Virus record (IMG/VR): IMGVR_UViG_3300044633_000774
Span: 30,655-94,654 of that record
Strand: one strand, 5' to 3'
Length of the DNA stretch: 64,000 nucleotides
Source of the DNA: a virus
Shown: one piece after another, positions 15,713 through 53,430 of the stretch
Layout: every line of letters starts with the position of its first letter
Numbering within the stretch: position 1 is the first letter of the stretch
Notes under the pieces: generated by a model
What the model saw: only the letters and a program-made list of their open reading frames with translations
Database searches by the model: none
What the model was told of the DNA's origin: nothing
Program-made: the position numbers and the translations under genes

Positions 15713-15738
15713 TACGAATGCCTATAATAGGGTTCGTA
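15713..15738 (+). promoter_or_regulatory. dnaK leader hairpin with CCTATAATAGGG core
   Basis: Outer arms TACGAA (15713-15718) and TTCGTA (15733-15738) are perfect complements. Between them lies CCTATAATAGGG (15721-15732), which can close CCU/AGG around AUAAU. The groES leader has the same core at the same place but different, also complementary, outer arms. It lies in the predicted 5' untranslated region, about 37 bases before the dnaK ATG. Confidence 0.65.
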
Positions 15739-15774
15739 ATTAATTTATTCTTGCTTAACTTAAAGGAGAAATAT

Positions 15775-17694
15775 ATGACAAGAAAATCACCTGTTCTGGG
15801 CATAGACCTTGGAACTACAAATAGTTGCGTCGCAATTCTTGAAAACAATAAATCACGTGTAATTGAAAATAACGAAGGTGCTCGTACTACACCAAGTATC
15901 GTTGCCTACGGCGATGAAATCATTGTGGGGGCTAGTGCTAAACGCCAAGCAGTTACTAATCCAAAAAACACAATCTACGCCAGCAAACGACTAATTGGTC
16001 GTAAGTTTGACGAGCCAGCAGTACAAAAAGACATTGACCTAATGCCATACAAAATCGTTAAAAACGAAAATGGTGATGCATGGGTCGAAGTCAACGGTGA
16101 CAAACTAGCACCTCCACAAATTTCAGCAGAAGTTCTGCGCAAAATGAAATTAACAGCAGAAGACTATTTGGGTTACAGTGTAACGCAGGCAGTTATTACA
16201 GTACCTGCTTACTTCAATGACAGCCAACGTCAAGCAACTAAAGATGCAGGTCGTATTGCAGGCTTAGAAGTATTGCGTATTATCAACGAACCAACTGCGG
16301 CTGCACTAGCATTTGGTTGCGATAAAGGTGATAAAAAAGACCGTAAGATTGCTGTGTATGACCTAGGTGGTGGTACATTTGATATTAGTATTATTGAAAT
16401 CAGTGACATCGACGGTGAAAAACAATTTGAAGTATTGTCAACTAATGGTGATACATTCTTAGGCGGTGAAGACTTTGACCAACGTATTATGGAATACTTG
16501 GTAGACGAGTTTAAGAAAGAATCTGGCATTGACTTAAAACAAGACATGCTGGCCTTACAACGTCTTAAAGAATCAGCTGAGAAGGCTAAGATTGAATTGT
16601 CAAGTTCAACACAGACAGATGTAAACTTACCATACATTACTGCTGATGCTACTGGTCCTAAACACTTATCAGTTAAACTAACACGTAGCAAGTTTGAAGG
16701 TCTAGTTGAAGATTTAATCAAACGTTCAATTGATCCATGTAAGATTGCTGTTAAAGACTCTGGTATTAGCATTAGTGACATTGACGATGTTATCTTAGTC
16801 GGTGGTCAAACACGTATGCCTAAAGTACAAGAAGCTGTTGAAGCATTCTTTGGTAAGGCTCCACGTAAAGACGTTAACCCAGATGAAGCTGTAGCAGTCG
16901 GTGCGGCTATTCAAGGTGCTGTACTAGGCGGCGATAAAACTGATGTATTGTTACTAGACGTAACTCCACTATCATTGGGTATTGAAACAATGGGTGGTAT
17001 TATGACCAAGCTGATTAAGAAAAATACAACCATTCCTACCAAAGCAAGCCAAACATTCTCTACAGCAGAGGACAATCAACCAGCTGTTACTGTTATGGTA
17101 GCACAAGGTGAGCGTGAGTTTGTCAAAGACAATAAAGTACTTGGCCAGTTCAACTTAGAAGGTATCGAACCGCAACGTCGTGGTCAACCACAAATTGAAA
17201 TTACTCTTGACATTGATGCTAATGGTATCTTAAAAGTAAGTGCTAAAGATAAAGCAACTGGCAAAGAAAACAAGATTACTATCAAAGCTAACTCAGGTTT
17301 AACTGAAGAAGAAATTGATGCAATGGTACAGGATGCAGAAGTTAATGCCGATGCAGATAAAAAATTGCGTGAATTAGTTGATGCACGTAACCAAGCTGAA
17401 GCACAGGTTCACGATGTTAAGAAAACTGTAGAAGAAGCTGGTGACTCGGTAACTGCTGAACAACATACTGCAATCAATGATGCTATTGCCGCTGTAGAAG
17501 AAGCCATTAAAGGTGATGATGCAGAAGCAATTAAATCAGCAATGGTAAAATTAGCAGAACCAGTAGCACCAATCTACCAAGCTAAACAAGCACAAGAGTC
17601 AGCAACAGTTGAGCCGGGTCAGCAGACACCAACGGATGCGCAAGATGGTGTTGTGGATGCTGAATTCACAGAAGTTAACAAGGAGAGTAAATAA
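15775..17694 (+). CDS. dnaK: Chaperone DnaK (Hsp70)
   Basis: A full-length Hsp70 of 639 residues, essentially the E. coli length. The ATPase domain begins [17 protein letters not shown] and includes [24 protein letters not shown] and [11 protein letters not shown]. The substrate-binding domain ([13 protein letters not shown], then [16 protein letters not shown]) and a helical lid follow, with an acidic tail ending DAEFTEV instead of the host-type EEV-x-x-D. The ATG at 15775 after AAGGAGAAAT is chosen; the frame opens at 15718. It is coupled to hsp20. No dnaJ or grpE is in the window, so host cochaperones or none would be used. Confidence 0.97.
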
Positions 17695-18158
17695 TGAAAC
17701 AAGTTTACACAACCCTTGATATCCCTAGCATCTATAAATTTGCTATTGGCTTTGATGATTTGTTTGCACAACTGCAACACTTAGAGCAACGTGGTAAGGA
17801 CAGTGGCTACCCACCGTTTAATCTAATTAAACTAAACGAAAATAACTACGCTATTGAACTAGCAGTAGCTGGTTTTGCTGAAGACGAATTAGATGTAGAA
17901 ATCGAAAACGGTGAATTAGTTATCCGTGGCACTAACCGTGAAGTTAGCTTAGAAGAGGCATTTGAAGAATTACGCGAAAATCCAGTAGAGTACATTCATC
18001 GTGGTATCGCTGCTCGTGATTTTGTCAAACGTATCAAACTTGCTGAAGGAGTAGAAGTCAACTCAGCGCACGTTAAAAATGGCATCCTAACAGTTAAATT
18101 GGTTCAATTTATACCTGAGCCAGTTAGACAAAAGGTTGCAATTTCATTCGAAAAATAG
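17694..18158 (+). CDS. hsp20: Small heat-shock protein, Hsp20/IbpA type
   Basis: A 154-residue alpha-crystallin-domain holdase. The N-terminal FAIGFDDLFAQLQHLEQ matches the IbpA-type start. The domain includes YPPFNLIKLNENNYAIELAVAGF, ELVIRGTNRE, and the closing NGILTVKLVQFIPE. Hsp20s hold unfolding proteins for DnaK, and here it is translationally coupled to dnaK by TAATG, which makes a working pair likely. Hsp20 genes are common in T4-like cyanophages; coupling to dnaK is much less usual. Confidence 0.93.
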   Translation: MKQVYTTLDIPSIYKFAIGFDDLFAQLQHLEQRGKDSGYPPFNLIKLNENNYAIELAVAGFAEDELDVEIENGELVIRGTNREVSLEEAFEELRENPVEYIHRGIAARDFVKRIKLAEGVEVNSAHVKNGILTVKLVQFIPEPVRQKVAISFEK

Positions 18159-18164
18159 TATAAT
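18136..18164 (+). promoter_or_regulatory. Putative promoter TTGCAA-17-TATAAT for clpS
   Basis: TTGCAA at 18136-18141 and TATAAT at 18159-18164, 17-base spacer, overlapping the end of hsp20. Its transcript would begin close to the stable hairpin at 18174. Confidence 0.55.
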
Positions 18165-18173
18165 AACTATAAG

Positions 18174-18191
18174 GGTGGAGGAAACTCCACC
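18174..18191 (+). promoter_or_regulatory. GNRA-capped hairpin at the 5' end of the clpS leader
   Basis: GGTGGAG, GAAA tetraloop, CTCCACC: seven perfect pairs with no T-run after it, so not a typical terminator. It would sit at the very 5' end of the transcript from the promoter at 18136 and could stabilise it; alternatively it may shape hsp20 3' ends. Confidence 0.6.
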
Positions 18192-18221
18192 TATTATCAA
18201 CACAAATAGAGAGAAGCATAT

Positions 18222-18527
18222 ATGGGCAAAGCCGTAACCAGAGTAAAGCCACAGGTAAATATGGGTGTGAAAGAACCTCCTATGTTCAAAGTGCTGTATC
18301 TCAACGATAATGTAACTACTATGGAATTTGTTATTGAAAGCCTTATGGTAGTGTTCAATCATTCTGCCGACACAGCTTCAGAAATAACTAAAAAGATTCA
18401 TGATGAAGGGTCAGCCGCAGTAGCAGTTTTGCCCTACGAAATGGCAGAACAAAAAGGTGTAGAAGTTACACAGTTAGCTCGCACTAATGGATTTCCTTTG
18501 GTGATTAAACTAGAGCCAGATGCATGA
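18222..18527 (+). CDS. clpS: ClpS, N-end rule adaptor of ClpAP
   Basis: A 101-residue protein matching ClpS throughout. It has PPMFKVLYLNDNVTTMEFVIESL, where the D-N-x-T-T-M pocket binds N-degron residues, then HDEGSAAVAVLPYEMAEQK, which holds the region contacting ClpA. ClpS directs proteins with bulky N-terminal residues to ClpAP. A ClpP homologue is encoded 29 kb away in this window, but no ClpA is seen, so the host ATPase would be used. It is followed by an ATGA-overlapping nucleotidyltransferase. Confidence 0.93.
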   Translation: MGKAVTRVKPQVNMGVKEPPMFKVLYLNDNVTTMEFVIESLMVVFNHSADTASEITKKIHDEGSAAVAVLPYEMAEQKGVEVTQLARTNGFPLVIKLEPDA

Positions 18528-19539: not shown

Positions 19540-19866
19540 ATGGAAATTATATTCGGTAAAGAAAATGCAGGAAAACTCCGAGAAAAATACACAGTACTAG
19601 ATCTAGAAACAATAGATGTCGAAGGCCAACCATTGGCAGTATTTTGTGTTATACCTGCAGATAAAATAACGCTAACTGACATGCCACAATTAGAATCGTG
19701 GGTTAAATTACATCATGAGTTTATTAACGGATACCAGTCTAAACAGTATAGTTACTGTCGAGATGCTGCTAATTATCTAATAGGTAAATTTGGTGGTGAG
19801 GTAGATACATTTTACGAAGAAATTATCAGACGTATTAACGAAGCAGAAGCAGTAGTATCCGACTAA
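19540..19866 (+). CDS. Hypothetical protein behind exonuclease
   Basis: A 108-residue protein that begins at the base after the exonuclease stop. It includes KYTVLDLETIDVEGQPLAVF near residue 20 and a helical C-terminal half (DAANYLIGKFGGEVDTFYEEI). The Leu-Glu-Thr stretch only superficially resembles an exonuclease motif, and no other catalytic residues follow. Last gene before a terminator; function unknown. Confidence 0.6.
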   Translation: MEIIFGKENAGKLREKYTVLDLETIDVEGQPLAVFCVIPADKITLTDMPQLESWVKLHHEFINGYQSKQYSYCRDAANYLIGKFGGEVDTFYEEIIRRINEAEAVVSD

Positions 19867-19937: not shown

Positions 19938-20435
19938 ATGATTAAATCTATGTTCTACAATCTTTTAATGGTCGTCGTGCTAACTGCTGGCGCTAATATT
20001 GCGCAGGCCGCAGAAATGGTACACACCTTTAATAGTCCGGCATTTCACGGACAAGGATTTGGTATACATGCCCTTACGATTAAACAATTAGAGGATCAAG
20101 CAAAAGACAAGCGCGAATCTGCCGCAGAAGCTATTCGAGATAAAGCAGAATCTGCTGCACTTAATACTCCGCAGGCACGCTTTATTGCTAATCTGGAATC
20201 AAGAATTTATAGTCAGTTGGCTAAACAACTAACTGACAGTATGTTTGGAGAAGGTGCTACTTGTACTACAGCGGGTGTAGTATGCGGTAATATTCCAAAC
20301 TTAGGCGGAAATAGTATTCAATGGAGTTTGGGTGCAGGTAATGATAATGGGTTAATTATCATCACTATACAGGACCTAGCTAACGTTAATAATATTACAA
20401 CAATGAAAGTGCCTGCAGGCTCATTTTATTTTTAA
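19938..20435 (+). CDS. csgF: Curli assembly factor CsgF homologue
   Basis: A 165-residue secreted protein with a signal peptide (LLMVVVLTAGANIAQAA). The mature start MVHTFNSPAFHGQGFG matches the CsgF N-terminus, which inserts into the CsgG pore, and the end has an IQDLANVNNITTMKVPAGSF beta segment. CsgF anchors the nucleator at the cell surface during curli secretion. Two cysteines (GATCTTAGVVCG) are not usual in enterobacterial CsgF. It is directly upstream of csgG, as expected. Confidence 0.85.
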   Translation: MIKSMFYNLLMVVVLTAGANIAQAAEMVHTFNSPAFHGQGFGIHALTIKQLEDQAKDKRESAAEAIRDKAESAALNTPQARFIANLESRIYSQLAKQLTDSMFGEGATCTTAGVVCGNIPNLGGNSIQWSLGAGNDNGLIIITIQDLANVNNITTMKVPAGSFYF

Positions 20436-20444
20436 GGAATATAC

Positions 20445-21311
20445 ATGAATAAAACACTTATATCCTTATTAATAACCGCACTGTTAACAGGATGTGCAAC
20501 AAGTAGTGCTATCCGTGAACAAATAACAAGTGAGCAATTTGATAAACCTGAGATAGTACGTGAAACATACTTTACTAAACCAGAGAATAAGGTATTACCT
20601 CCGAGCGGCGGCCCCGTTCCGGTAGCAGTATATAGTTTCTTAGATAAAACCGGACAGCGTAAAAATGTACCCAACGTGGCTAGTTTTAGTACAGCAGTAT
20701 CGCAAGGTGCAGAAGCATACCTAATTGGCGCCCTACAAGATGTAGGCGACCAACGTTGGTTTACTGTGTTAGAACGTGTAGGGTTAGACAATTTGATTAA
20801 AGAACGTCAGATGATTCGTCAGATGCGTGAACAATATCAAGGTCGTGAAGCTAAGGCATTACCACCAATGATGTTTGCTGGTGTTATTGTTGAAGGAAGT
20901 ATAACAGGCTACGATAGTAACCTGCTTACGGGTGGTAGTGGTGTTCGTATACTAGGTATTGGCGCACAAACGCAATACCAAAGTGATACAGTAACGGTTA
21001 CATTAAGAACAGTAAGTGTTAATACAGGTGAAGTATTAACAACTGTAACAGTTACTAAAACAGTATTAAGCTACATGGACAAACTTGGTGTATTAAAGTT
21101 TGTTGAAGAAGGCACAAAAGCCGTCGAAGCTGAAACTGGTATGAGTATCAATGAAAGTATCAATAAAGCAACAAGCCTAGCAGTAAAAGCGGCCGTGATT
21201 GCTACTATTCGAGAAGGGGTTCGTAAAGGGCATTGGTCTTACAAAGAAGAACCTAAGCCTGTAGTACAAACAGATGGTATAACATACCCGCTGTTAGAAA
21301 CAATAAAATAA
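20445..21311 (+). CDS. csgG: Curli secretion channel CsgG
   Basis: A 288-residue outer-membrane lipoprotein. The signal peptide ends in the lipobox LLTGCATS, Cys at residue 17. The CsgG domain follows: VPVAVYSFLDKTGQRK, RWFTVLERVGLDNLIKERQMI, FAGVIVEGSITGYDSN and the pore-forming strands TVTVTLRTVSVNTGEVL. CsgG forms a nonameric pore that exports unfolded curlin. It lies 9 bases after csgF and before curlin-repeat genes. CsgG homologues are known in some marine myophages; the fuller cluster here is notable. No CsgE is present. Confidence 0.95.
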   Translation: MNKTLISLLITALLTGCATSSAIREQITSEQFDKPEIVRETYFTKPENKVLPPSGGPVPVAVYSFLDKTGQRKNVPNVASFSTAVSQGAEAYLIGALQDVGDQRWFTVLERVGLDNLIKERQMIRQMREQYQGREAKALPPMMFAGVIVEGSITGYDSNLLTGGSGVRILGIGAQTQYQSDTVTVTLRTVSVNTGEVLTTVTVTKTVLSYMDKLGVLKFVEEGTKAVEAETGMSINESINKATSLAVKAAVIATIREGVRKGHWSYKEEPKPVVQTDGITYPLLETIK

Positions 21312-21344
21312 TAATAGGATTTTAAAAATCCAAGGAGCACGACG

Positions 21345-22130
21345 ATGAAATATAATTTAAAAGCAACAGTAAGTATGATGTTTTTAGCGTTATCAACATC
21401 ATTGATGGCCGCAGGTCCAACAGGACCTAACCGTGTTTACATTGAACAATTAGGTAGCACCAATATTGTTACAATTGAACAAGTCGGCGGCACAAACGAT
21501 GTTGGTGGTATTGCTGGTAGTGTAGCAGTTGACGCAACAGGTCTAAGTACATTAACAGTAACAGCACCTAGTACAAGTAATTATGCTACAATTAACGGTA
21601 GCAATAACGGTGTTACTATTACACAAACCGGCGATGATAACCAATCACAGTACAACATCAAAGGTGGAAATAATAGCTTTACAAGTACTCTAACTGGTGA
21701 CGGTAATCAAAGCAAACTTACAATCGGTGATACTAACACTAATGGTATGCGTAATACTGTTACTGAAACTGTTACTGGTAGTACTAATATGTTGATTACT
21801 AATATTGTTGGTAGTGATAATGCATTATCAACTACTATTAACGGTGGTAGTAACCAATTGACCACTACTGTAACTACTAGCAACGCTGATATTACCAACA
21901 CTATTAGTGGTAGTAACAACATATTCAATATACAACAAATTGATGCTGCAGGTAGTGCTGGTCATAGTTTAGTTACCTCAACTACAGGTGATTTTAACAG
22001 TATTACTACACAGCAACAAGGTACAAATGATACTACATTTAATATCAGCACAACCGGTAATAATAATACAATTACTGTTCGTTCGAGTAGCGGCGCTATA
22101 GTAAGTCCAGTATCAGCAATAGTGAGATAG
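21345..22130 (+). CDS. Curlin-repeat (CsgA/CsgB-like) amyloid protein
   Basis: A 261-residue secreted protein with a signal peptide (MMFLALSTSLMAAG). The mature part is made of about 20-residue repeats with the curlin pattern, e.g. VYIEQLGSTNIVTIEQVGG, GVTITQTGDDNQSQYNIKG and STLTGDGNQSKLTIGD. Repeats of S/T-x-x-Q-x-G-x-x-N-x-x-x-x-x-Q build stacked beta-strand amyloid. It is the expected cargo of the CsgG channel upstream. Q-rich strands are stronger in the first half; the second is Thr/Asn-rich. Whether it is major subunit or nucleator cannot be told. Confidence 0.85.
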   Translation: MKYNLKATVSMMFLALSTSLMAAGPTGPNRVYIEQLGSTNIVTIEQVGGTNDVGGIAGSVAVDATGLSTLTVTAPSTSNYATINGSNNGVTITQTGDDNQSQYNIKGGNNSFTSTLTGDGNQSKLTIGDTNTNGMRNTVTETVTGSTNMLITNIVGSDNALSTTINGGSNQLTTTVTTSNADITNTISGSNNIFNIQQIDAAGSAGHSLVTSTTGDFNSITTQQQGTNDTTFNISTTGNNNTITVRSSSGAIVSPVSAIVR

Positions 22131-22133
22131 TCA

Positions 22134-23222
22134 ATGAAACTATTGCTTGCAATAGCATGCTTAGTAGCAGTTACTAACGCATGGGCGGGCATTGGGACAG
22201 TAAGCGATACTAAAGGTACCGCTTGCTCAATAGAGCGTGCTAAACAGACCCTGCCTGGTAATAAAGGTGCCGCCATAGAAAGTATGGATACCTATGTTAC
22301 AGGCGGCTGTGTTAGCAACATTACATTTAAAGATGACACCAAAGTAAAAATAACAGAAAACAGTCGACTAATGATAGACGACTTTGTTTTTGATCCTAAA
22401 AAATCCGATGCAGGCAAGCTAGCTCTTAAAGTAGGTATGGGCACAGTACGTTATGCCAGTGGACAAATTGCTAAAAATAATCCACAACGAGTAGACATTA
22501 AAACCCCCACAGCATCAATTGCTGTTCGAGGTACAGACTTTAACATGACTGTAGACGAAGCAGGGCAGAGTCTAGTAATTCTTGTACCTAGCTGTAAAGA
22601 AGGCGAAAAGATCAAAGAATACGAGCTAGAAGAAAACTTATGTAAAGTAGGCAAGATTGAAGTCAGTACACTTGCTGGCATAGTTACCCTAGACAAAGCA
22701 TTTGAAGGTACCTATGTAACCAGTGCTAACATGATGCCTAGTCCTCCGGTTATTATTAATACAGTTGAAGGTAAGATTGGCAACAGTCTTATTATTGCTC
22801 GCCCGCCAGAAATTATTCGAGCTAGTAAAGACGCGGCAAAAAGTAAACGCGAACTAGAACAAGAAGAATTGGAAGCTATACAGGTCAGTCAAATGTCACA
22901 GCGTATGGACAACGAACCCGACGCTAAGGCTGTGGTACTACCTTACAGTTTCGATAGCGGCAAAACCGGTTGTAATCCAACAACTAATATCTGTGTGAGA
23001 TGGGAACGACCCGACGGTGATACTATTCAAGCACGTGGTCGAGGCGTTGCGTTCCGCCAAAGCGAAGATCACTATGCTGAAGTTAAAACACAGGGCTACG
23101 AAAGTAATACTTCGATTGAAATTACACATGATGACAACATAGCTTCGGCTATAATTGGTTCGGGTGATCCGGGTGGTAATGTAGTGCGTATTAAACAGAA
23201 TTCTGGAGTGTTACGCAGATGA
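22134..23222 (+). CDS. Secreted FecR-domain protein
   Basis: A 362-residue protein with a signal peptide (LLLAIACLVAVTNAWAG). Residues 50-150 form a FecR domain: NITFKDDTKVKITENSRLMI, then IKTPTASIAVRGTDFNMTV, which is the hallmark T-P-x-a-x-x-v-R-G-T motif. FecR domains outside iron signalling occur in secreted proteins near curli or adhesin genes. The remainder is charged and helical, then beta-rich. It overlaps the next gene by 4 bases and lies 3 bases after the curlin gene, so it is part of the curli operon. Likely a periplasmic or surface assembly partner (inference). Confidence 0.8.
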   Translation: MKLLLAIACLVAVTNAWAGIGTVSDTKGTACSIERAKQTLPGNKGAAIESMDTYVTGGCVSNITFKDDTKVKITENSRLMIDDFVFDPKKSDAGKLALKVGMGTVRYASGQIAKNNPQRVDIKTPTASIAVRGTDFNMTVDEAGQSLVILVPSCKEGEKIKEYELEENLCKVGKIEVSTLAGIVTLDKAFEGTYVTSANMMPSPPVIINTVEGKIGNSLIIARPPEIIRASKDAAKSKRELEQEELEAIQVSQMSQRMDNEPDAKAVVLPYSFDSGKTGCNPTTNICVRWERPDGDTIQARGRGVAFRQSEDHYAEVKTQGYESNTSIEITHDDNIASAIIGSGDPGGNVVRIKQNSGVLRR

Positions 23223-24574
23223 GATTAATTGCACTTGTTATGTTATTCATATGTAATAATGCTCTGGCCCAGTTGGGGTTTGAGTCTGGCAATTTAACTG
23301 GCTGGACCGCAAGCGGCGGTGATGTTACAGTATTGGGCACTACCAGTGTCAGTCCCGGTGGCGGAAAGAATTGGACAGTGAATCCTTATGGTACAAAGAT
23401 GGGTCGTCTTCAACCCACAGGCAGTGTGCAGTTCAATACGGCCACTACTCAGTTAGGATTAACTTCAGTAGAAAATACAGCCATAAGAAACTACTTAACA
23501 TTTCAAAGTCAAAATGGAGGTGGTGGTAATGCTACTCCTACTAATGCTTCTTGGATCAAACGAGAAATATCTCTACAAGCAGGAACCACATATACATTTG
23601 GTTGGAATTATTTAAGTACGGACTATACACCCTTTAATGACGGCAGTATGATGACTCTGACACATGCTACCAATGGTGGTATTACTCCTAACTTAAACAA
23701 CAGTCAACAACGCTATGCTCTACTGGGATTTACTAATCCTGGTACAGGTAACTATGCTACAGGTTCTTATGGTTCAACTGGGTGGCAACAGGCTCGCTTT
23801 ACAGTGCCAGAAACTGGTACGTACATATTAGGATTTGCCTCATTTAATCTTGGTGATACAGCACTAAGCCCGATGTTGTTTATAGATGAAATTCAGGGCA
23901 CTACTGCATTGAATGGGCAGACATTTGGTGCTGTGGCTCCTAATGCCGGGTCTACTGCTCCACCTGCAGAACCAGTTGCTCCTAGTTTATGTTGTGGCGG
24001 TAGTTCAGCCGCCTTTTCTATAGACGTTGAAAAATCAGCTTCTATGCAGGCCTTTATCAATAGGACAACACAGGACAGTCAGGTGTACATTGAACAGATA
24101 GGCAACAACAATACCATTGTGGTAAATCAAACCGGCACAAGAAATAACTATGTTGACTACTACGGAAATGGTAGTTCAAATACAGTTGATATAACCCAAT
24201 CTGGTACAGCGTCAACTGTTGCAAACTATACCGATTTAAATATTCTCGGTAACAATAATAACGTTGATGTTATCCAGCAGAGTACAGGCGGCGCCAAGGG
24301 TGTATACGCGACAGTTAACAATAATGCTAATACAGTCTCGGTCTTGCAGAAAGACGCAGGCAATCACCACTTAGATTTGACAGTAAGTGGCGGTAATAAG
24401 ACAGTAGACATAACTCAACAGGGCAGTGCTGCACACATGGCTGACATTACTCTAAGTGGAGCAGGTGCTAGAAGTTTAAACTTAAATCAGCAAGGTACAG
24501 TGCAACAGTTTTACAGTATTAATAGTAGTTGCGCTAGTGCCTGTCAGGCAATAACTGTAATACAAGGGCAATAA
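23219..24574 (+). CDS. Surface protein fused to C-terminal curlin repeats
   Basis: A 451-residue secreted protein (signal ALVMLFICNNALAQ). Residues 18-240 form a beta-sandwich-like module starting FESGNLTGWTASGG, a pattern seen in carbohydrate-binding or exosortase-type surface proteins. The tail from about 280 consists of curlin repeats (VYIEQIGNNNTIVVNQTG; NTVDITQSGTASTV; KTVDITQQGSAAHM). It could cap, nucleate or decorate the amyloid made by the 21345 gene. It has an unusual LCCGG pair of cysteines. Fusion of a sandwich domain to curlin repeats is not standard for CsgB. Confidence 0.75.
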   Translation: MRLIALVMLFICNNALAQLGFESGNLTGWTASGGDVTVLGTTSVSPGGGKNWTVNPYGTKMGRLQPTGSVQFNTATTQLGLTSVENTAIRNYLTFQSQNGGGGNATPTNASWIKREISLQAGTTYTFGWNYLSTDYTPFNDGSMMTLTHATNGGITPNLNNSQQRYALLGFTNPGTGNYATGSYGSTGWQQARFTVPETGTYILGFASFNLGDTALSPMLFIDEIQGTTALNGQTFGAVAPNAGSTAPPAEPVAPSLCCGGSSAAFSIDVEKSASMQAFINRTTQDSQVYIEQIGNNNTIVVNQTGTRNNYVDYYGNGSSNTVDITQSGTASTVANYTDLNILGNNNNVDVIQQSTGGAKGVYATVNNNANTVSVLQKDAGNHHLDLTVSGGNKTVDITQQGSAAHMADITLSGAGARSLNLNQQGTVQQFYSINSSCASACQAITVIQGQ

Positions 24575-24678: not shown

Positions 24679-24699
24679 GATAGTATAACATATTAGTGT
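24674..24699 (+). promoter_or_regulatory. Porin leader hairpin
   Basis: ACACTGATA (24674-24682) pairs with TATTAGTGT (24691-24699) with one G-U, loop of 8, placed between the promoter and AAGGAGAAG. It may stabilise or regulate the porin mRNA. Confidence 0.45.
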
Positions 24700-24725
24700 T
24701 ATCCAATAAAAGGAGAAGTATCGTA

Positions 24726-25937
24726 ATGAAGAAATTATTATTAGCAACATTATTAGCAAGTATGTATTCAACTGCTCACGCTGGCATTCAAATTCCAGCT
24801 GGTGATTGGACACTAGACATCGGTGGCGTTGTAAACGCTTACTACACAAACACACGCGGCACAGGCAGTGCAGTAGTTGGTGGTCTAGGTGGACCTAATG
24901 CTACAGGTCAACGTAACGAATCAAATATCACAACTGGTTTATTACCAAACGTATTATCAGTTTCTGGTAAGTCACGTCAAAATGATCTAGACATCGGTTT
25001 TACAATTGCTATCAATCCGGGTGCTTCTACAACACAAGCCGGTATTCAAACAGCTAACCAAGAAAATCGTCAAGCATTCTTAACCATCGGTGATAAATCA
25101 TGGGGTAGTGTAAAACTAGGTAAAGATTTAGGTATCTACGCTTCTGATGCAATCCTTAACGACATGACATTGCTGGGTGTTGGTGCAGGCGCTGGTGCAC
25201 TAGCTGGTAACACAACAACGTTAGGTCGTATTGGGACTGGTTATATGTACGCTGACTGGAAATCACAAGTTGCCTACACATCACCAAACTTCGACGGCTT
25301 CCAATTCACTGCTGGTGTAACACAAGCATGGAATGCTCAAACAGCTGACTTAAATGCAGTAACAGCAGGTGTACAAGCTGCTTCAGCTACTTCAACAGGA
25401 CGTGGCGGCGCTCAACCAGCATTCGAAGGTAAAGTATCTTACTCACTAGCAGGCCCTATTGCTGCTAAAGTTTGGTCAAGTGCTATTTCACAAAAAGTTG
25501 AAGGCCTATCTGGTGCTAACGCCGACAGCCGTGCTTATGCATGGGACGTTGGTACAAACTTGTCTGCTGGTCCATACGGGTTAACTGCTTACTACTTTGA
25601 TGGTAAAGGTATTGGCCGTTCACTACAATTACTAGACGGCTTTGATGCTACAGGTAAACGTCGTGATTCAAATGGCGGCTACGTGCAAGGTACATACACA
25701 TTGCCTACTGCTACCAAACTTGGTCTAAGTTATGGTCAAAGTAAATTAGATCGTAACAGTGGCGAAACAGCTACAGCTTTAGTTTCGAAAAACGAAATGT
25801 GGACTGTTGGTGCTTATCACCCACTCACAAAACACGTGAACTTAGTTGCTGAATACTCAGACGTTAAATCAGAAGCACAAAACGGTGCAGAAGGTAAATC
25901 ACGTTCAGTATCAGCAGGTGCTATCTTATTCTTCTAA
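24726..25937 (+). CDS. Gram-negative general porin (Porin_4-like)
   Basis: A 403-residue outer-membrane beta-barrel. It has a signal peptide (LLLATLLASMYSTAHAG) and mature start IQIPAGDWTLDIGGVVNAYY. Strands such as AYTSPNFDGFQFTAGVTQAWN and KVSYSLAGPIAAKVWSSAI follow, and it ends SVSAGAILFF with the C-terminal Phe needed for BAM insertion. It resembles betaproteobacterial porins. The ATG at 24726 after AAGGAGAAG is chosen over 24696. It has its own promoter and terminator, so it is monocistronic. A complete porin in a phage is rare. Confidence 0.9.
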   Translation: MKKLLLATLLASMYSTAHAGIQIPAGDWTLDIGGVVNAYYTNTRGTGSAVVGGLGGPNATGQRNESNITTGLLPNVLSVSGKSRQNDLDIGFTIAINPGASTTQAGIQTANQENRQAFLTIGDKSWGSVKLGKDLGIYASDAILNDMTLLGVGAGAGALAGNTTTLGRIGTGYMYADWKSQVAYTSPNFDGFQFTAGVTQAWNAQTADLNAVTAGVQAASATSTGRGGAQPAFEGKVSYSLAGPIAAKVWSSAISQKVEGLSGANADSRAYAWDVGTNLSAGPYGLTAYYFDGKGIGRSLQLLDGFDATGKRRDSNGGYVQGTYTLPTATKLGLSYGQSKLDRNSGETATALVSKNEMWTVGAYHPLTKHVNLVAEYSDVKSEAQNGAEGKSRSVSAGAILFF

Positions 25938-25961
25938 GATTTACTTCTTAGTCTAATAATT

Positions 25962-25988
25962 AAAAAGCCCCTTAACTGGGGCTTTTTT
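25962..25988 (+). terminator. Rho-independent terminator after porin
   Basis: AAAAAGCCCC, loop TTAACT, GGGGCTTTTTT. Confidence 0.9.
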
Positions 25989-26059
25989 AATCTATATGTA
26001 ATCTAAATTGTAATCTTTTATTTTAACAATTAGTGTAAATAGTACACAAGGAGGACATC

Positions 26060-26221
26060 ATGATGAAACAGAGTAAATTACTCACTAAGTTATATCGTGC
26101 TTGTCTCGACCATGATACAGAAACCATTGTTAAACTTAAGAAAAAAGAGTTTACGAAGATACTGAAACACAAGGCCGAAGGTAAGCCGTTCAATGGTAAG
26201 TGGTCAGTGGTTAGGATCTAA
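26060..26221 (+). CDS. Small basic protein, 53 residues
   Basis: Opens MMKQSKLLTKLYRACLDHDT and ends GKWSVVRI, with a lysine-rich middle (KLKKKEFTKILKHKAEGK). CAAGGAGGAC precedes the ATG at ideal spacing, and a terminator follows, so a real monocistronic small gene is likely. GTAAATA, a weak late-type site, lies upstream. Function unknown; the charge suggests nucleic-acid or protein binding. Confidence 0.6.
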   Translation: MMKQSKLLTKLYRACLDHDTETIVKLKKKEFTKILKHKAEGKPFNGKWSVVRI

Positions 26222-26236
26222 CTACTTCAAAACAAT

Positions 26237-26258
26237 AAACCCGCTGAGGCGGGTTTTA
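26237..26258 (+). terminator. Rho-independent terminator
   Basis: AAACCCGC, loop TGAG, GCGGGTTTT, just after the 53-residue gene. Confidence 0.85.
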
Positions 26259-26346
26259 TTTTGGCTATGTGTATTAAAAATTTAATCTATTTGTAACATT
26301 ACTGTAATCTTTGTGTGTTTAAATAATATATATAAGGGGAATATTA

Positions 26347-27774
26347 ATGACCATACAACAAGTTAAATCAATAATGTATTATGTAGTAATAGCATTTGCA
26401 CTATCAATGGCAGGATTAAAACAAGCTCACGCAGACAGTACCACAGACATTGTTAATGCACTGGTTATGAAAGGTGTACTTACAGAAGAAGAAGGCGCAC
26501 TGCTAAACAAAGGCCATACTGGTGAAATAGGCGCAGTTAAAAAAGAAAAAGATACCACTGTACATGCGGCTAGTAAAATGAACATTCGTGGCTATTTACA
26601 AGTGCGCAATACTACTATGCTTAGTGGTGACGAAGGAGTCAACCTTTGGTCAGATCGATCTGTAGGTAATAAAAACTCTCTTGCTGATCAAGACAAAAAC
26701 TTTCTTATCCGTCGAGCACGTGTGATCATTTCTGGTTCAGCTGGTGAGCGTTTGGATTATTATATTCAACCTGACTTTGCTAGTACAGCAGGTACCACAG
26801 GTAACGTAGCGCAACTGCGTGATGCTTATGGTGATGTTAACTTGACCAAAGACAAAGTACACCGCGTTCGTGTTGGACAAAGTAAAGTACCATATGGCTT
26901 TGAAAACTTACAATCTTCACAAAATCGTCTAGCACTTGATCGCGCTGACGCATTTAATAGTGCAGTACGTGACGAGCGTGATTTGGGTGCGTTTTATTAC
27001 TACACACCGGACAACGTTCAAAAGCTCTTTAAAGAAATTCAAGACGGCGGTTTAAAACATTCGGGTAACTACGGTATGGTTGCCTTGGGTGTTTATAATG
27101 GTCAAGGTGCTAACCAACAAGATCGTAATGACAACTACCACGTTGTGGCACGTGCTACTTACCCATGGAAAACCGAAAGCGGTCAAATCTACGAAGCTGG
27201 TGTACAAGGTTACTCGGGCAAGTATGTAAGAACAGGTAGTGCATATAGAAAAAATATGGGCAACAATGTTTACGCAACTAAAACACCAACATTAGAAGCA
27301 GGCAACACAACTGGTTTTAAAGATCAACGTGTGGGTGTAAGTTTTATGATGTACCCACAGCCATTAGGTCTACAAGGTGAGTGGAACTGGGGTAAAACTC
27401 CTGGCTTAGATACTACTGCTAGCACTGATGGTATTATCAAAGAAACTAACTTAAACGGTGGCTACATTCAAACTATGTATAAGATTGACAACTTCAAAGT
27501 GTTAGATACTAATGGTACTTTAATTCCATTTGTTAGATGGCAATACTTTGATGGTGCGTCAAAAGCAGAAACTAACTCACCGATGAACAAGGTTAACGAT
27601 TGGGAGATAGGAGCTGAATGGCAAATTGCTCCAGAAGTTGAACTTGTGGCTTACTATCATATGATGAACCGTAGCAATTTAGTAACAGGAGCAACTGCTA
27701 CTACAATAGCAAAACAAGACTATGCTAACTTTAAAGCAGATGCCCTACGTGTGCAATTGCAGTACAACTTCTAA
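26347..27774 (+). CDS. Phosphate-selective porin O/P-like protein
   Basis: A 475-residue outer-membrane protein. A signal peptide (VVIAFALSMAGLKQAHA) and a short helical region (VNALVMKGVLTEEEGALLNK) are followed by the barrel: FLIRRARVIISGSAGERLDYY, VHRVRVGQSKVPYGFENLQS and a final ALRVQLQYNF. The ARV..G..D.YQ.DF and G..K.P...E motifs are those of the OprO/OprP family, which takes up phosphate or polyphosphate. Phosphate selectivity is not proven from sequence. Directly followed by a small membrane peptide gene. Confidence 0.88.
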   Translation: MTIQQVKSIMYYVVIAFALSMAGLKQAHADSTTDIVNALVMKGVLTEEEGALLNKGHTGEIGAVKKEKDTTVHAASKMNIRGYLQVRNTTMLSGDEGVNLWSDRSVGNKNSLADQDKNFLIRRARVIISGSAGERLDYYIQPDFASTAGTTGNVAQLRDAYGDVNLTKDKVHRVRVGQSKVPYGFENLQSSQNRLALDRADAFNSAVRDERDLGAFYYYTPDNVQKLFKEIQDGGLKHSGNYGMVALGVYNGQGANQQDRNDNYHVVARATYPWKTESGQIYEAGVQGYSGKYVRTGSAYRKNMGNNVYATKTPTLEAGNTTGFKDQRVGVSFMMYPQPLGLQGEWNWGKTPGLDTTASTDGIIKETNLNGGYIQTMYKIDNFKVLDTNGTLIPFVRWQYFDGASKAETNSPMNKVNDWEIGAEWQIAPEVELVAYYHMMNRSNLVTGATATTIAKQDYANFKADALRVQLQYNF

Positions 27775-27785
27775 TAGGAAAAACT

Positions 27786-27875
27786 ATGTTTGAGATTTTT
27801 ATAGAAGCTGTAAAAGAAATTAGTGGTATATTAGCGATCATGGCGGCCATTGGCATATGGTCACTGTTCCCTTAA
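27786..27875 (+). CDS. 29-residue membrane peptide
   Basis: Reads MFEIFIEAVKEISGILAIMA and ends IGIWSLFP, a single hydrophobic helix with an acidic N-terminal face. AGGAAAAACT precedes the ATG and it overlaps the next gene by 19 bases, which suggests translational coupling. Too short for a family assignment; may assist membrane targeting of the neighbours. Confidence 0.45.
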   Translation: MFEIFIEAVKEISGILAIMAAIGIWSLFP

Positions 27876-28624
27876 TTAGATACAAAACAATTTGTATATC
27901 TGACTTTCACCTTGGCACTAAAGATGCTAAAGCTGAATTGCTGAATAACTTTCTCAAACATCACACCTGTGATAATCTATTCCTAATAGGTGACATCATT
28001 GATGGGTGGAAGATACAACAGAACAAGTGGGCATGGAAACAATCGCACACTAATGTTATTCGACGAATACTAGGCTACAGTAAACGAGGATGTAATGTAA
28101 CCTATGTGACCGGTAACCATGACGAATTCCTCCGTCCTCTGGTACAACATCATTTTAGTCTAGGCCGTATACGTATTGTTAATCAAGCAGAGTATCGCAG
28201 TGTAGATGGAGAATTGTTTCTAATTACACACGGCGATATGTTTGATGGTATTACTAGGTTAGCACCATGGATTGGATTTTTAGGTGATAAGGCCTACGAT
28301 GTAGCTTTATGGTTTAACAACTATTTTAACTACTGCAGAAGTAAGTTGGGATTTGGCTATTGGAGTCTTAGTAAGTATCTCAAACATAAAGTTAAGAAAG
28401 CAATAGACTTTGTATTTAAATTTGAAACTAATCTAACTGACTATGCGGCCAAACGTGGATACGATGGTGTAATCTGCGGACATATACATACTCCGGAAAT
28501 CAAACACATGCCCAACGGTATGATCTATATGAACGATGGTGACTGGGTAGAAAGTTGTAGTGCGCTTGTTGAACACGACGATGGGCGTTGGGCTATAGTC
28601 TACTGGAATCACATAATCCAATGA
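27857..28624 (+). CDS. LpxH-like metallophosphoesterase
   Basis: A 255-residue calcineurin-like phosphoesterase. Metal-binding motifs appear in order: ISDFHLG, LIGDIIDGWK, VTGNHDEF, ITHGDMFDG and CGHIHTP. This arrangement matches the UDP-2,3-diacylglucosamine hydrolase branch used in lipid A synthesis, and a long insert with FGYWSLSKYLKHKVKKA would contact lipid. It could adjust LPS, in line with the porins beside it, but substrate is not certain. It overlaps the 29-residue gene and, by 4 bases, the next small gene. Confidence 0.8.
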   Translation: MVTVPLIRYKTICISDFHLGTKDAKAELLNNFLKHHTCDNLFLIGDIIDGWKIQQNKWAWKQSHTNVIRRILGYSKRGCNVTYVTGNHDEFLRPLVQHHFSLGRIRIVNQAEYRSVDGELFLITHGDMFDGITRLAPWIGFLGDKAYDVALWFNNYFNYCRSKLGFGYWSLSKYLKHKVKKAIDFVFKFETNLTDYAAKRGYDGVICGHIHTPEIKHMPNGMIYMNDGDWVESCSALVEHDDGRWAIVYWNHIIQ

Positions 28625-31045: not shown

Positions 31046-33058
31046 ATGCTTAAAAAAATCTTACTCTCACCTTGGACTGCGGTCCTAACCCTAGCACTGA
31101 TTGTCGGTATTACTATTACTGGTCCTACGTTTGTAGAAAGCGTTAAATTACGATATTTTGATCAGCTTATTACCAGTCAACCCCCGGTAGAAAATAATAT
31201 CTACACTGTAAACATAGATGAAGCCACTCTAGACAAGTTTGGACAGTGGCCATTCAAACGTGATGTTTACGCAGACCTGATCAGCGACCTGTATAGTCAT
31301 AATGCTGGTCTGGTTGTTTGGACTGTTATGATGCCAGAGACTGATCGACAAGGTGGTGATGCTTACCTTGCTGAAGCATTAACAGACTTTCCTGTTATCT
31401 TAACCAACATGCCCGGCCAAGCAACTAAGAATATTCCACGTAAGCCAGGTAGTGCTGTTATTGGCTCAGAGTACATTGACACTATTGTACAATATCCAGG
31501 CATCATTGCTAACATTCCTAGTTTAGAGCAGAATGCTGTTGGTGTTGGTATTGCTAACACATTTCCAGAAATAGACGGGGTTAACCGTAGACTGCCATTG
31601 TTTGTGGGCTACGACAATAATGTATATCCTAGTATACCATTAGAAGTTCTGCGAGTCTTAGTCAACACTAATACTTTCCAAGTTAAGTTAAATGCGCAAG
31701 GTGTAGAGAAGATGCGTATTCCTGGCTTTAATCCTATCAGTACAGACAGTCAAGGACGTATCTGGGTAGACTGGAGTCAGACTAATCGTCAAGTATCGGC
31801 AGTTGATTTGCCCGACGATTTTGGTGGCAATATTGTTATTGTGGGCACTACAGCCGCAGGTACTAATAATCCTGTAGCAACAAGTAAAGGTAACGTGTGG
31901 CCTCAAGATATGCAGGCCGCTGTAATTGGCACATTAGCCAACAATGTAAACATTGAACGTCCCGATTGGGCACCTGGTGCTGAACTGTTGGCACTTATCG
32001 CTATCAGTTTGATCATCTTGTTCTTAAGCCGTTGGGTCTATGTAGGACTTGGTGTAGGTATTGTATTAACTGCTAGTTTAATTCCTGCTAGTATGTACCT
32101 GTTCTCGCACTACAAATTTTTAATTGATGCTATTGTACCAACGGCAGGCATAGTTCTAGTTATGCTACATGCTTACGGCGTTAAGTTTGTATCAGAGTTC
32201 CTACAGAAACAACAGATCAAGAAACAATTTGGTAGTTATGTTAACCCTACTATTGTTGAACGCTTGCAAAAGAATCCAGACTTAATTAAGTTAGGTGGTG
32301 AACGTCGAGAGTTATCAATTGTTATGACTGACCTACGTGGCTTTACTACACTCGGTGAAAGTTTTGGAGATGATGTAGAAGGTCTCACACAGATCATGAA
32401 CGACTACATGACAGCACTGAGTATTCCTGTACTTAAGAACGACGGTACTCTGATTAAGTTCATTGGTGATGCGTCACTACACGTACACGGTGCTCCATTA
32501 GATGATGCTAATCACGCCAAGACTGCTGTACAGACAGCACTTGAAATGATCAAAGCCATTGAGGACTTTAACGTAGAACTTGTAGCCAGTGGTCGTCCGC
32601 CAGTTGGTATGGGTGCGGGTGTCAACACTGGTGAAACCTTAATTGGTAACATTGGTGCTAAGAGCAAGTTTGGCTATGACGTATTAGGTGACAGTGTAAG
32701 TACAGCGGCTCGACTAGAAGGACAGACTAAATCATATGGTGTCCTACTAATCATTGGTCCTAAAACTGCTGAGTATTGTAAAGATGCATTTCCTGTAGTA
32801 TGGCTAGATAACATTGCTGTTAAAGGTAAAACAATTGGTCTTGACATTTATACAGTTGGTCGTACTAATCTGTATATGCACGAAGAGTATCGCAAAGAAT
32901 ATACTCGAGGTTCGTGGGGCAAGGCTATTGTATGGGCTAAAAAATTAGTCAACAACGATGATGTTGATATTAAACATTATTATGAACTAATGATTGAGCG
33001 TATGGAACAGGGTGTTCCTGCAAATTTTGATGGAACATATCATGCTACGAGCAAGTAG
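31046..33058 (+). CDS. CHASE2-domain class III adenylate/guanylate cyclase
   Basis: A 670-residue membrane signalling enzyme. An N-terminal membrane helix (VLTLALIVGITITGPTFV) is followed by an extracytoplasmic CHASE2 domain (NIYTVNIDEATLDKFGQWPF). Three more helices at about 315-380 precede the cyclase domain. There MTDLRGFTTLGESFGDD gives the first metal Asp, FIGDASLHVHGAP the second, and GMGAGVNTGETLIGNIG and LGDSVSTAARLEG the rest of the active site. The substrate-selecting residues cannot be judged safely, so ATP or GTP is open. Such sensors are bacterial; a phage copy would change host cyclic-nucleotide signalling. Its end overlaps the next gene. Confidence 0.92.
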   Translation: MLKKILLSPWTAVLTLALIVGITITGPTFVESVKLRYFDQLITSQPPVENNIYTVNIDEATLDKFGQWPFKRDVYADLISDLYSHNAGLVVWTVMMPETDRQGGDAYLAEALTDFPVILTNMPGQATKNIPRKPGSAVIGSEYIDTIVQYPGIIANIPSLEQNAVGVGIANTFPEIDGVNRRLPLFVGYDNNVYPSIPLEVLRVLVNTNTFQVKLNAQGVEKMRIPGFNPISTDSQGRIWVDWSQTNRQVSAVDLPDDFGGNIVIVGTTAAGTNNPVATSKGNVWPQDMQAAVIGTLANNVNIERPDWAPGAELLALIAISLIILFLSRWVYVGLGVGIVLTASLIPASMYLFSHYKFLIDAIVPTAGIVLVMLHAYGVKFVSEFLQKQQIKKQFGSYVNPTIVERLQKNPDLIKLGGERRELSIVMTDLRGFTTLGESFGDDVEGLTQIMNDYMTALSIPVLKNDGTLIKFIGDASLHVHGAPLDDANHAKTAVQTALEMIKAIEDFNVELVASGRPPVGMGAGVNTGETLIGNIGAKSKFGYDVLGDSVSTAARLEGQTKSYGVLLIIGPKTAEYCKDAFPVVWLDNIAVKGKTIGLDIYTVGRTNLYMHEEYRKEYTRGSWGKAIVWAKKLVNNDDVDIKHYYELMIERMEQGVPANFDGTYHATSK

Positions 33059-33833
33059 TTTCATCATACTGCTACTATTCTGCACCGCAGTAGTAGCAAA
33101 GCCTATTACTGCTAAAAGTTTTTTAGTAGCAGATAACACAGGCGAAGTTATACTAGAAAAGAATGCTGATCGTGTACAGCCTATTGCCAGCATTACTAAA
33201 CTAATGACAGTGATGGTGGTGTTAGATGCCAACCAAAACTTAGATGAAATGATCACACTTGATCGTAGAATGGTTAATAAGTATCACACTCGGTTACCGC
33301 GCAGCGTTAAACAGCTGACTCGTGGTGAATTAATTGATCTTGCTATTGTCAAGAGTGATAACTTTGCCGCATATACATTAGGCGCAAATTATCCGGGTGG
33401 TCTAGCTCGTTGTATAGCTGAAATGAATCATATTGCGTTTGTATTAGGCATGACAAGTACCACATTTGCCGACCCTACAGGATTAGACGCAGGCAATGTG
33501 AGTAATGCCCGTGATTTAGGTAAATTAGTCCTAGCCGCAAACGAATATACAGAGATTACCGAAGCTAGTGGTAAACCTAATGTAAGTATCAAAGTTAAAC
33601 GTCGTTGGTGGCAATTTGGCAACACCAATCCAATGGTTAGAAATAGTAATGATGTAAGAGTAAGTAAAACAGGTTATATAAATGAAAGTGGCGGTTGTGT
33701 GGTTATGCTACTTGATACTGAGTTAGGACAACGTGTGATTGTGTTGCTTGGTAGTAAAAATACTCGTACACGTTTTCCAGAAGCACAAAAAATCGCTGTA
33801 ACAGTTAGCAACAGCGATATTAATGTTGATTAG
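33042..33833 (+). CDS. PBP7/DacA-like D,D-peptidase (peptidase S11)
   Basis: About 263 residues with a signal peptide (MLRASSFIILLLFCTAVVA). All three penicillin-binding motifs are present: IASITKLMTV (S-x-x-K), VKSDNFAAY (S-x-N) and VSKTGYINE (K-T-G). It cleaves peptide side chains or cross-links of peptidoglycan in the periplasm. The ATG at 33042 gives the signal peptide a normal length and has GGAA before it; the frame extends to 32994. It overlaps the cyclase by 17 bases. It faces the minus-strand lysis-type cassette and may serve wall remodelling or release. Confidence 0.9.
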   Translation: MLRASSFIILLLFCTAVVAKPITAKSFLVADNTGEVILEKNADRVQPIASITKLMTVMVVLDANQNLDEMITLDRRMVNKYHTRLPRSVKQLTRGELIDLAIVKSDNFAAYTLGANYPGGLARCIAEMNHIAFVLGMTSTTFADPTGLDAGNVSNARDLGKLVLAANEYTEITEASGKPNVSIKVKRRWWQFGNTNPMVRNSNDVRVSKTGYINESGGCVVMLLDTELGQRVIVLLGSKNTRTRFPEAQKIAVTVSNSDINVD

Positions 33834-47150: not shown

Positions 47151-47273
47151 ATGTTATTAAGTGATTATAAAAAATTAATGTCACTATCACCAAAATCGTT
47201 TTGGGCACGGATGCGTCCAAGAGATACCAATGGTAGATTTATTTCAACAAAAGGAATTACATGTCAACTTTAG
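47151..47273 (+). CDS. 40-residue basic protein overlapping clpP
   Basis: Reads [20 protein letters not shown] and then [14 protein letters not shown] before a stop 13 bases inside clpP. AAAGGAGCA precedes the ATG at proper spacing. The R-P-R-D-x-x-G-R-F stretch resembles short basic motifs in other phage proteins. Its overlap could couple clpP translation. Function unknown. Confidence 0.5.
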
Positions 47274-47881
47274 TCCCAATGGTAGTAGAACGTACAAGTC
47301 AAGGCGAACGTAGCTACGACATTTATTCACGCTTACTTAAAGATCGTATCATCATGTTGGATACTGATGTTAACGAGCATACTGCTAGTTTAATTGTAGC
47401 GCAGATGCTGTTCTTAGAAAGCGAAAGCCCAGAGAAAGACATTTTGTTTTACATCAATAGCCCGGGTGGTAGCGTAACTGCTGGCTTAGCAATTTATGAT
47501 ACAATGCAGTTTATTAAATGTGATGTATCAACTATTGTACTTGGACAAGCATGTTCAATGGGTAGTTTCTTAGCTCAAGCAGGAGCCGCAGGCAAGCGTA
47601 TTGTATTGCCAGAAGCACGTACAATGATTCACCGTGTTAGTTCGGGTACTCCGGGCACACGTGGTTCAGTACACGTACAAGATCTACAGTTTGAAGATGC
47701 TAAACGTAGCTTTGAAGAGTCAGTGCGCATTAACAAACGCTTAACAGAACTATATGCACGTCATAACACGGCTGGCAAAACATATGATGAACTTTACGAA
47801 GCAATGAAGTTTGATACGTTCTTAAGTGCCGACGAAGCAGTAGCATATGGTCTAGCAGATGAGGTTATTACTAAACGCTAA
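47261..47881 (+). CDS. clpP: ClpP protease proteolytic subunit
   Basis: A 206-residue serine protease, normal length for ClpP. It starts with [20 protein letters not shown], the processing and axial-loop region. The catalytic Ser is in [13 protein letters not shown] and His in [12 protein letters not shown], with Asp further on in the handle region. ClpP forms a 14-mer barrel fed by ClpA or ClpX. It could mix with or replace host ClpP; the phage also has clpS. No ATPase is visible here. Start ATG overlaps the 40-residue gene. Confidence 0.96.
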
Positions 47882-48934: not shown

Positions 48935-49177
48935 ATGTTAGCACGTAGTTTAGTATTCGTAGCACTATTAGCAGTAGGTGTAGCACAGGCAGATGAACAG
49001 AGCAATGTTGTTAATCAACAGCAACTAGCCAAACGTTCATATGCGGCACCTGTTAAAGATAAAGAAGTTCTCGAAGGTGCTAGTGTAACAGAAGAAGTGG
49101 CGGTTGACAAAAAACATCAAATGTTGCGTTTACACATGTTGGGTAAACTTCCTTACATGGAAAAGGCAACTGATTAA
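48935..49177 (+). CDS. Small secreted protein
   Basis: An 80-residue protein with a clear signal peptide (MLARSLVFVALLAVGVAQAD), the mature part charged and helical (NQQQLAKRSYAAPVKDKEV; KKHQMLRLHMLGKLPYM). Probably periplasmic. It is controlled by the inverted repeat just upstream and ends shortly before the tmRNA, which may share its transcript. No family recognised. Confidence 0.65.
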   Translation: MLARSLVFVALLAVGVAQADEQSNVVNQQQLAKRSYAAPVKDKEVLEGASVTEEVAVDKKHQMLRLHMLGKLPYMEKATD

Positions 49178-49189
49178 AGAAATTGTTGT

Positions 49190-51514: not shown

Positions 51515-53430
<1,916 letters not shown>

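Follow-up and report, generated by a model that had tools for sequence, protein, structure and literature searches.

A near-complete curli-type secretion module in a viral record, with exchangeable heads on its second curlin protein

Curli-type (type VIII) secretion genes are already known from phages, and the fullest account is that of the pelagiphage module of podo- and myoviruses, comprising CsgF, CsgG, CsgA/B, FecR, often a second CsgA/B, and adenylate cyclase (PMC9599517). Superinfection defence and "sibling capture" have been proposed as its functions (PMC9599517); the capture idea goes back to PMC7029224, which reported csgF and csgG and guessed at the fibre genes. What phage curli do has been puzzling since 2020, when their fibre genes were believed to be absent (PMC7029224). 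An uptake role for phage CsgG/CsgF has also been proposed in print (PMC7029224 / PMC9004378), as has a pinholin/secretin-like role in lysis, in the paper on phage Melnitz (PMC9004378), according to which that phage lacks csgA and csgB. Three curli genes have been reported from a T4-like environmental genome (PMC7198788), and an alphaproteobacterial link of the phage module has already been published. Here we describe such a module in a 64,000-nucleotide stretch of DNA (the window), corresponding to positions 30655-94654 of the 94,654-bp IMG/VR virus record IMGVR_UViG_3300044633_000774 (G000).

The five genes that an initial annotation had read from this DNA (csgF, csgG, a curlin, FecR and a sandwich-curlin fusion) are real and correctly placed, as judged from open reading frames (ORFs), Pfam, a curlin-unit hidden Markov model (HMM) and AlphaFold: the ORF listing gives five ORFs on the + strand with exactly the same coordinates (Table 1). 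Intergenic gaps are 9 bp between csgF and csgG, 33 bp between csgG and the first curlin gene and 3 bp between the latter and the FecR gene, which shares a 4 bp overlap with the second curlin gene. A usual member of the module, the CHASE2-cyclase, had been overlooked; it lies 6.5 kb downstream of the second curlin gene. The cluster is not novel, contrary to the annotation, which took CsgG alone to be known from marine phages and the co-occurrence of pore, anchor and cargo to be new: PMC9599517 reports CsgF, CsgG, one or two CsgA/B, FecR and adenylate cyclase in this order, and GenBank annotates csgF-csgG-curlin-FecR-curlin-cyclase in Melnitz and, with FecR and the second curlin unnamed, in HTVC008M. 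PHROGs families likewise already match csgF, csgG, FecR and the cyclase (phrog_35372, phrog_20175, phrog_37870 and phrog_35576, respectively). The module is real, functional-looking and of an already published kind; its fixed curlin stalk with an exchangeable head, on the second curlin protein, is a feature for which we found no published description.

A scan of IMG/VR found 83 relatives, of which 80 were kept, with identities from 100% to about 40% and on contigs of up to 353 kb; seven records of an annotated phage collection match the window CsgG, every one at <60% identity. Phage loci L002-L083 were compared, and a gene was counted only where the flank was long enough, although near-copies among the loci (L063-L065 are >99.98% identical) cause the counts to overstate independence. 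On this basis csgF lies upstream of csgG in 81/81 testable loci and FecR is present in 63/63, while the first curlin was recognised by script in 62 of the 63, or in all once the overlapping curlin ORF of the exception (L021) is counted. A second curlin occurs in 53/56 loci, the exceptions being the near-copies L063-L065. A cyclase homologue is found downstream of csgG in 37/43 loci, a count that leaves out L003, L005, L009, L041 and L061, whose match is a 106-109 aa ORF upstream of csgF; in 25 loci no more than 400 bp separate the cyclase from the last gene for curlin or FecR. The ratio of nonsynonymous to synonymous substitution rates (dN/dS), computed against six loci in all, is low for the window versus L003, L005 and L006: 0.059-0.094 for csgF, 0.080-0.135 for csgG, 0.087-0.099 for the first curlin, 0.092-0.104 for FecR and 0.133-0.194 for the stalk of the second curlin. 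The five-gene module is under purifying selection and, together with the conserved gene order, this bears out the annotation's view that pore, anchor and cargo belong together in a phage.

The N-terminal part of the second curlin protein differs in kind between loci. Among 45 non-redundant homologues, Pfam (E <=0.01) recognises F5/8 type C heads in 18 and PA14 heads in 6, and curlin repeats in 26; seed searches place the head type of the window also in L009, L017, L019 and L047, with other head families elsewhere. The clearest cases of exchange are L003, L005 and L006, which match the window at 87-93% identity in csgF, csgG, the first curlin and FecR, yet carry a PA14 head; for L003 identity is 90-93% across csgF, csgG, the first curlin (curA) and fecR, and 93% in the next porin gene. 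L009, at 70-75% identity in the same four genes, shares the head of the window at 72%. On a CsgG tree of 45 phage tips, whose bootstrap had not settled, 11 head classes (assigned by hand, the SQW and L60 heads being distantly related) need 24 changes against a minimum of 10. Heads are partly inherited yet often exchanged.

The heads are probably glycan-binding, as models and motifs suggest. In the AlphaFold2 (AF2) model of the window head, residues 109-226 form strands (block predicted local distance difference test, pLDDT, 38-86), and its Foldseek neighbours include the carbohydrate-binding modules (CBMs) CBM61, CBM16 and CBM4 at E 4.5e-3 and weaker, ranking below glucanase matches that align with poor root-mean-square deviation. 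The sequence DDG at the calcium/sugar site is kept in 6/6 PA14 heads; it is the sequence of the calcium-binding D-cis-D motif (PMC6650083). Of 10 large ORFs for curlins in bacterial assemblies none had a Pfam head, and two of them, L089 and L090 (the latter on a phage-like contig), lack any Pfam match; nine phage head seeds likewise had no match in 80 csgG loci from bacterial assemblies. A search of the open-access literature, supplements left out, returned no description of swappable heads on a phage curlin, and the main text of PMC9599517 contains none of the words PA14, lectin, carbohydrate or discoidin.

Below the head, the second curlin protein is predicted by AlphaFold to form a regular strand-pair solenoid over residues 286-449 (block pLDDT 83-97 from residue 291), with invariant Gln/Gly columns. 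A curlin-unit HMM built solely from the stalks of this protein and its relatives, and so far applied to related sequences, scores at least 6 bits in 56/56 homologues of the first curlin. In Melnitz (L082 10812-13606), two csgG-neighbour proteins exceed the Pfam curlin cut-off, contrary to the statement in PMC9004378.

A CsgG lacking pore-forming strands would speak against such a cluster, but a profile of 41 phage CsgGs, the window included, aligns residues 2-262 of the E. coli CsgG chain with E 6.3e-77 and short gaps only. At what we take to be the constriction and transmembrane-hairpin positions of E. coli CsgG, the phenylalanine of the constriction is retained but its tyrosine and asparagine are not (by eye). 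For CsgF, a phmmer search against the PDB gave a chance match only. CsgE and CsgD were said to be missing, and we agree: CsgE was found in none of 12 phage records (G000 not in the set), and a GerE/CsgD-type regulator in none of 12 that included G000; the two sets differ, and in each 10 are metagenome records that may be incomplete. PMC7029224 describes CsgE as dispensable for the phenotype. Many related phage CsgGs (L007, L012, L016, L028, L034 and others) bear C-terminal extensions, reaching about 400-440 aa versus 288 in the window. A CsgG 42% identical to that of the window is found in L084 (OR851715.1), an unverified entry of 1,499 bp under the name Salmonella phage S.Kent 1-2-1, which is perhaps a contig of another organism.

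The FecR protein may be a fibre component rather than an iron regulator. A Pfam FecR domain is present in 44/44 homologues, and the model aligns to the FecR domains of PupR/anti-sigma proteins (Z 15.3 over 135 residues). A further alignment, of residues 17-113 to the "cell surface anchoring domain" 5ix9, has Z 6.8 over 73 residues, a value below 8 that may reflect a common arrangement only. An N-terminal cytoplasmic anti-sigma domain was not found, the protein starting with a single signal-peptide-like helix (residues 2-15) followed by FecR strands, and PF04773 being the only family matched; a role as ferric-citrate anti-sigma factor is unlikely because this domain is lacking. Most of the FecR proteins end in a curlin-like strand, as judged from the purpose-built HMM, a strand motif and the AF2 model. 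The last 60 residues are modelled as strands (pLDDT 85-90 to residue 350, 74 for 351-360), and the curlin-unit HMM scores at least 6 bits in 28/54 FecR C-termini, versus 0.28% of shuffles and 0/54 FecR domains; the window protein is just under this threshold at 5.8 bits, and Caulobacteraceae FecR C-termini score 7.5 and 6.5 bits. A terminal hydrophobic-x-hydrophobic-x-Gln strand occurs in 51/54 FecR proteins and 8.9% of shuffles, the exceptions being L057, L078 (possibly cut by the contig end) and L089. No curlin-like match to the C-terminal unit was among the matches listed in a fold search, which barely covered parts outside residues 16-236. We found no description of such a FecR C-terminal strand in the open-access literature.

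A CHASE2 sensor is present in the cyclases of the window, Melnitz, HTVC008M and L087, and no description of this sensor on a phage-module cyclase was found in the open-access literature. The pairing of FecR with CHASE2 is known from Burkholderiales and Pseudomonas, in a biofilm operon, and the ligands of CHASE2 were called unknown in 2016 (PMC5192318); the term retention module does not occur in the part of PMC8277102 considered. Among 115 genomes of the class to which the Hyphomonas genome belongs, 52 had a CHASE2 match, and 40 loci, one per genome, were picked from these. A FecR gene was found within the fetched stretch (about 4-5 kb on each side) of 20/40, with a second-round model trained on matches in the same 40 loci (18 matches in the first round, 20 in the second); it lay within 300 bp of CHASE2 in 9/40, and on the same strand in 6 of these 9. 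In 80 csgG loci of bacterial assemblies FecR occurred in four, three times beside a CHASE2-cyclase and once on a phage-like contig.

A surface fibre, as envisaged by the initial annotation, is plausible. We somewhat favour the reading that infected cells put out an amyloid fibre with lectin heads, which would serve in adhesion or in capturing cells and would be built by a near-complete curli-type (type VIII) module lacking CsgE. CsgG and CsgF would form an outer-membrane pore during infection, through which both curlin-repeat proteins would be exported to assemble on the cell. The second curlin would join the fibre by its conserved stalk and display its N-terminal head; the exchange of heads is observed, and incorporation and glycan binding are what the arrangement would imply. 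The FecR protein is read as attached to the fibre because of its C-terminal curlin-like unit and terminal strand motif; it may lie at the base of the fibre, as its nucleator or anchor, and might report the state of the fibre to the CHASE2-cyclase. The likeliest benefit would be that infected cells adhere specifically to other cells or particles. A bolder proposal, which we advance only tentatively, holds that the amyloid fibre is tipped or studded with glycan-binding heads, exchanged as cassettes like receptor-binding proteins, and serves to catch fresh hosts or particles, while FecR, forming its base by means of the C-terminal curlin unit, signals to the CHASE2 adenylate cyclase. The pattern of a stalk with swapped heads leads to a specific claim, namely that each head binds particular glycans or cells and that these differ between phages; the exchangeable head hints at the fibre as a sticky, target-specific tool. 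It also brings FecR, as a suggested member of the fibre, together with the CHASE2-cyclase. If cells are indeed made sticky by infection, encounter rates and aggregation in water would be altered.

Several observations weigh against this reading. The absence of CsgE makes the efficiency of export uncertain, and the coupling of FecR to CHASE2 is a genomic association only. No clumping was seen in cultured Melnitz infections (PMC9004378), and this phage also encodes two curlins over the Pfam cut-off, the second without a recognised head. Second curlins are headless in several loci (L013, L021, L068, L070, L073, L077). The Foldseek matches of the window head are weak and stand among proteases, toxins and adhesin domains that have a similar fold, and confidence in the head model is moderate. 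Nor is the exchange of heads free: when head labels are shuffled on the CsgG tree the average is 31.4 changes, and in 0/200 shuffles were there as few as 24. As for the FecR unit, Pfam gives no support, marine C-termini score low (L070 -1.0 and L077 -1.9 bits), and the Hyphomonas protein (L089) scores -2.9 bits and has no terminal motif.

Three other explanations were considered. The CsgG-CsgF pore may have been repurposed to control how permeable the outer membrane is or when lysis occurs (PMC9004378), or to take up nutrients, with the fibre genes being secondary; that uptake and lysis roles have been proposed in print, that the periplasmic gate factor CsgE is absent and that two porins adjoin the module agree with this, but every locus with enough coverage has curlin cargo, this cargo is under purifying selection in the window, and the head-swapping second curlin would be left without a role. 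We consider such repurposing unlikely. Pores for release, a role suggested by the initial annotation, are akin to the lysis idea of PMC9004378; conserved cargo with swappable heads counts against this being the main function. The fibre might instead coat the infected cell and block superinfection by other phages without any specific adhesion, as proposed for pelagiphages (PMC9599517). Several loci with headless curlins only would fit, but a simple coat has no need of the exchanged PA14, F5/8-C and jelly-roll heads, and we are doubtful of this explanation too.

That the curlins are virion components, either decorative or tail fibres, with CsgG and CsgF as passengers, seems very improbable. Head exchange does resemble that of phage receptor-binding proteins; on the other hand, all five proteins start with a signal-peptide-like or lipoprotein-like sequence (judged by eye), and bacterial contigs carry a related module that lacks the headed protein.

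Table 1. Features of the curli-type module in the window (positions counted from the first nucleotide of the window)
Feature	Position	Strand	Length and evidence
csgF homologue	19938..20435	+	165 aa; signal-peptide-like start and CsgF domain; Pfam PF10614 E 6.2e-10; phrog_35372 E 4.9e-32
csgG homologue, predicted outer-membrane pore	20445..21311	+	288 aa; lipobox-like LTGC; Pfam PF03783 E 8.2e-49
First curlin-repeat protein, likely fibre subunit	21345..22130	+	261 aa; Pfam curlin repeat below cut-off, E 0.023, 15.1 bits
Secreted FecR-domain protein	22134..23222	+	362 aa; Pfam FecR (PF04773) E 1.2e-10
C-terminal curlin-like beta unit of FecR protein, residues 304-355	23043..23198	+	AF2 strands; curlin-unit HMM 5.8 bits
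Second curlin protein, exchangeable head and curlin stalk	23219..24574	+	451 aa; Curlin_rpt E 3.3e-4, 21.0 bits, cut-off 20.7
N-terminal head of second curlin protein, residues 18-245, CBM-like beta-sandwich	23270..23953	+	AF2 strands 109-226; Foldseek
Curlin stalk of second curlin protein, strand-pair solenoid, residues 286-449	24074..24565	+	AF2; invariant Gln/Gly columns
CHASE2-sensor adenylate/guanylate cyclase, displaced module member	31046..33058	+	CHASE2 E 1.2e-37; Guanylate_cyc E 1.4e-17; phrog_35576 E 3.3e-210

Elsewhere in the record, PHROGs recognises phage genes for primase, DNA helicases, a DNA polymerase family protein, ribonucleotide reductase, and tail and virion structural proteins. 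Contamination of this record with bacterial DNA was ruled out because phage replication and structural genes flank the module and its 83 relatives (80 kept) sit in viral contigs; phrog_2, tried as a phage hallmark, was uninformative, having no match in G000 and matching 11/14 control genomes. A scan for promoters and terminators gave nothing usable (22 promoter-like sites vs 18.9 expected, and 7 terminator-like sites vs 4.6 expected). The module is followed by envelope-related genes, for a Gram-negative porin and a porin O/P, together with an LpxH-like phosphoesterase (24696-28624), and the cyclase by one for a D-Ala-D-Ala carboxypeptidase-like protein, named by eye (31046-33833), a homologue of which is near the cyclase also in L007, L008, L010, L011, L028, L029, L055 and L057. 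Directly upstream of csgF is a 108-aa ORF (19540-19866) without Pfam family, whose homologues in L002, L003, L005, L009, L041 and L061 are picked up by the phage cyclase model with E of about 1e-8 to 1e-10. The window also holds a transfer-messenger RNA (tmRNA) gene (49140-49491), matching both the Rfam permuted tmRNA and the Betaproteobacteria tmRNA, models that overlap and prove no host, and an apparent set of DnaK, small heat-shock protein, ClpS, ClpP, GroES and GroEL (15718-18527, 47261-47881, 51515-53430; named by eye from translations).

The order csgF-csgG-curlin-FecR-cyclase is also carried by three bacterial contigs, from two Caulobacteraceae metagenome-assembled genomes (MAGs; L087, L088) and from Hyphomonas (L089, a 705-kb contig). 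In a quick tree of 55 selected rows, based on CsgG only, the CsgG of these three falls with phage CsgGs and apart from 24 other bacterial CsgGs (Shimodaira-Hasegawa-like approximate likelihood ratio test, SH-aLRT, 99), which suggests that the module moved as a unit between alphaproteobacteria and phages, in either direction. Four short contigs in MAGs of Rhodobacteraceae, Pirellulales, Pelagibacter and Flavobacteriales (L090, L092, L095 and L105) have a CsgG inside phage groups and are probably phage contigs binned with bacteria.

Like the bacterial curli of E. coli and Alphaproteobacteria, the phage module has the CsgG pore, CsgF and the curlin-repeat subunit; it differs in having neither CsgE nor a CsgD-type regulator, and in adding FecR, the CHASE2-cyclase and a headed second curlin. 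The Caulobacterales-type loci L087-L089 are closer, having the same gene order and a CsgG grouping with that of phages, but they stand on bacterial contigs, with the curlin genes before FecR and no second curlin between FecR and cyclase. In the FecR-CHASE2 operon of Burkholderia a secreted FecR-domain protein likewise adjoins a CHASE2 sensor, but there it is a LysM-FecR protein with a CHASE2 histidine kinase, and curli genes are not named among the members of that operon (PMC5192318). RTX adhesins with distal PA14 heads (PMC6650083) share the combination of a sugar-binding head, only predicted to bind in the phage, with a long surface stalk, and the alignment of the FecR protein to 5ix9 may be a further likeness; the phage stalk consists of curlin repeats beside CsgG, not of type 1 secreted RTX repeats. 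The greatest likeness is to the pelagiphage type VIII module (PMC9599517; HTVC008M, Melnitz), whose csgF-csgG-CsgA/B-FecR-CsgA/B order and adenylate cyclase are both found in the window and which is likewise without CsgE. The histidine kinase directly upstream in that module was not recognised by eye among the upstream ORFs of the window, of which only 19540-19863 was scanned with Pfam. The window further differs in that its cyclase is displaced downstream rather than adjoining, and in that its second curlin bears a CBM-like head, where that of HTVC008M bears a PA14 head and that of Melnitz none that is recognised.

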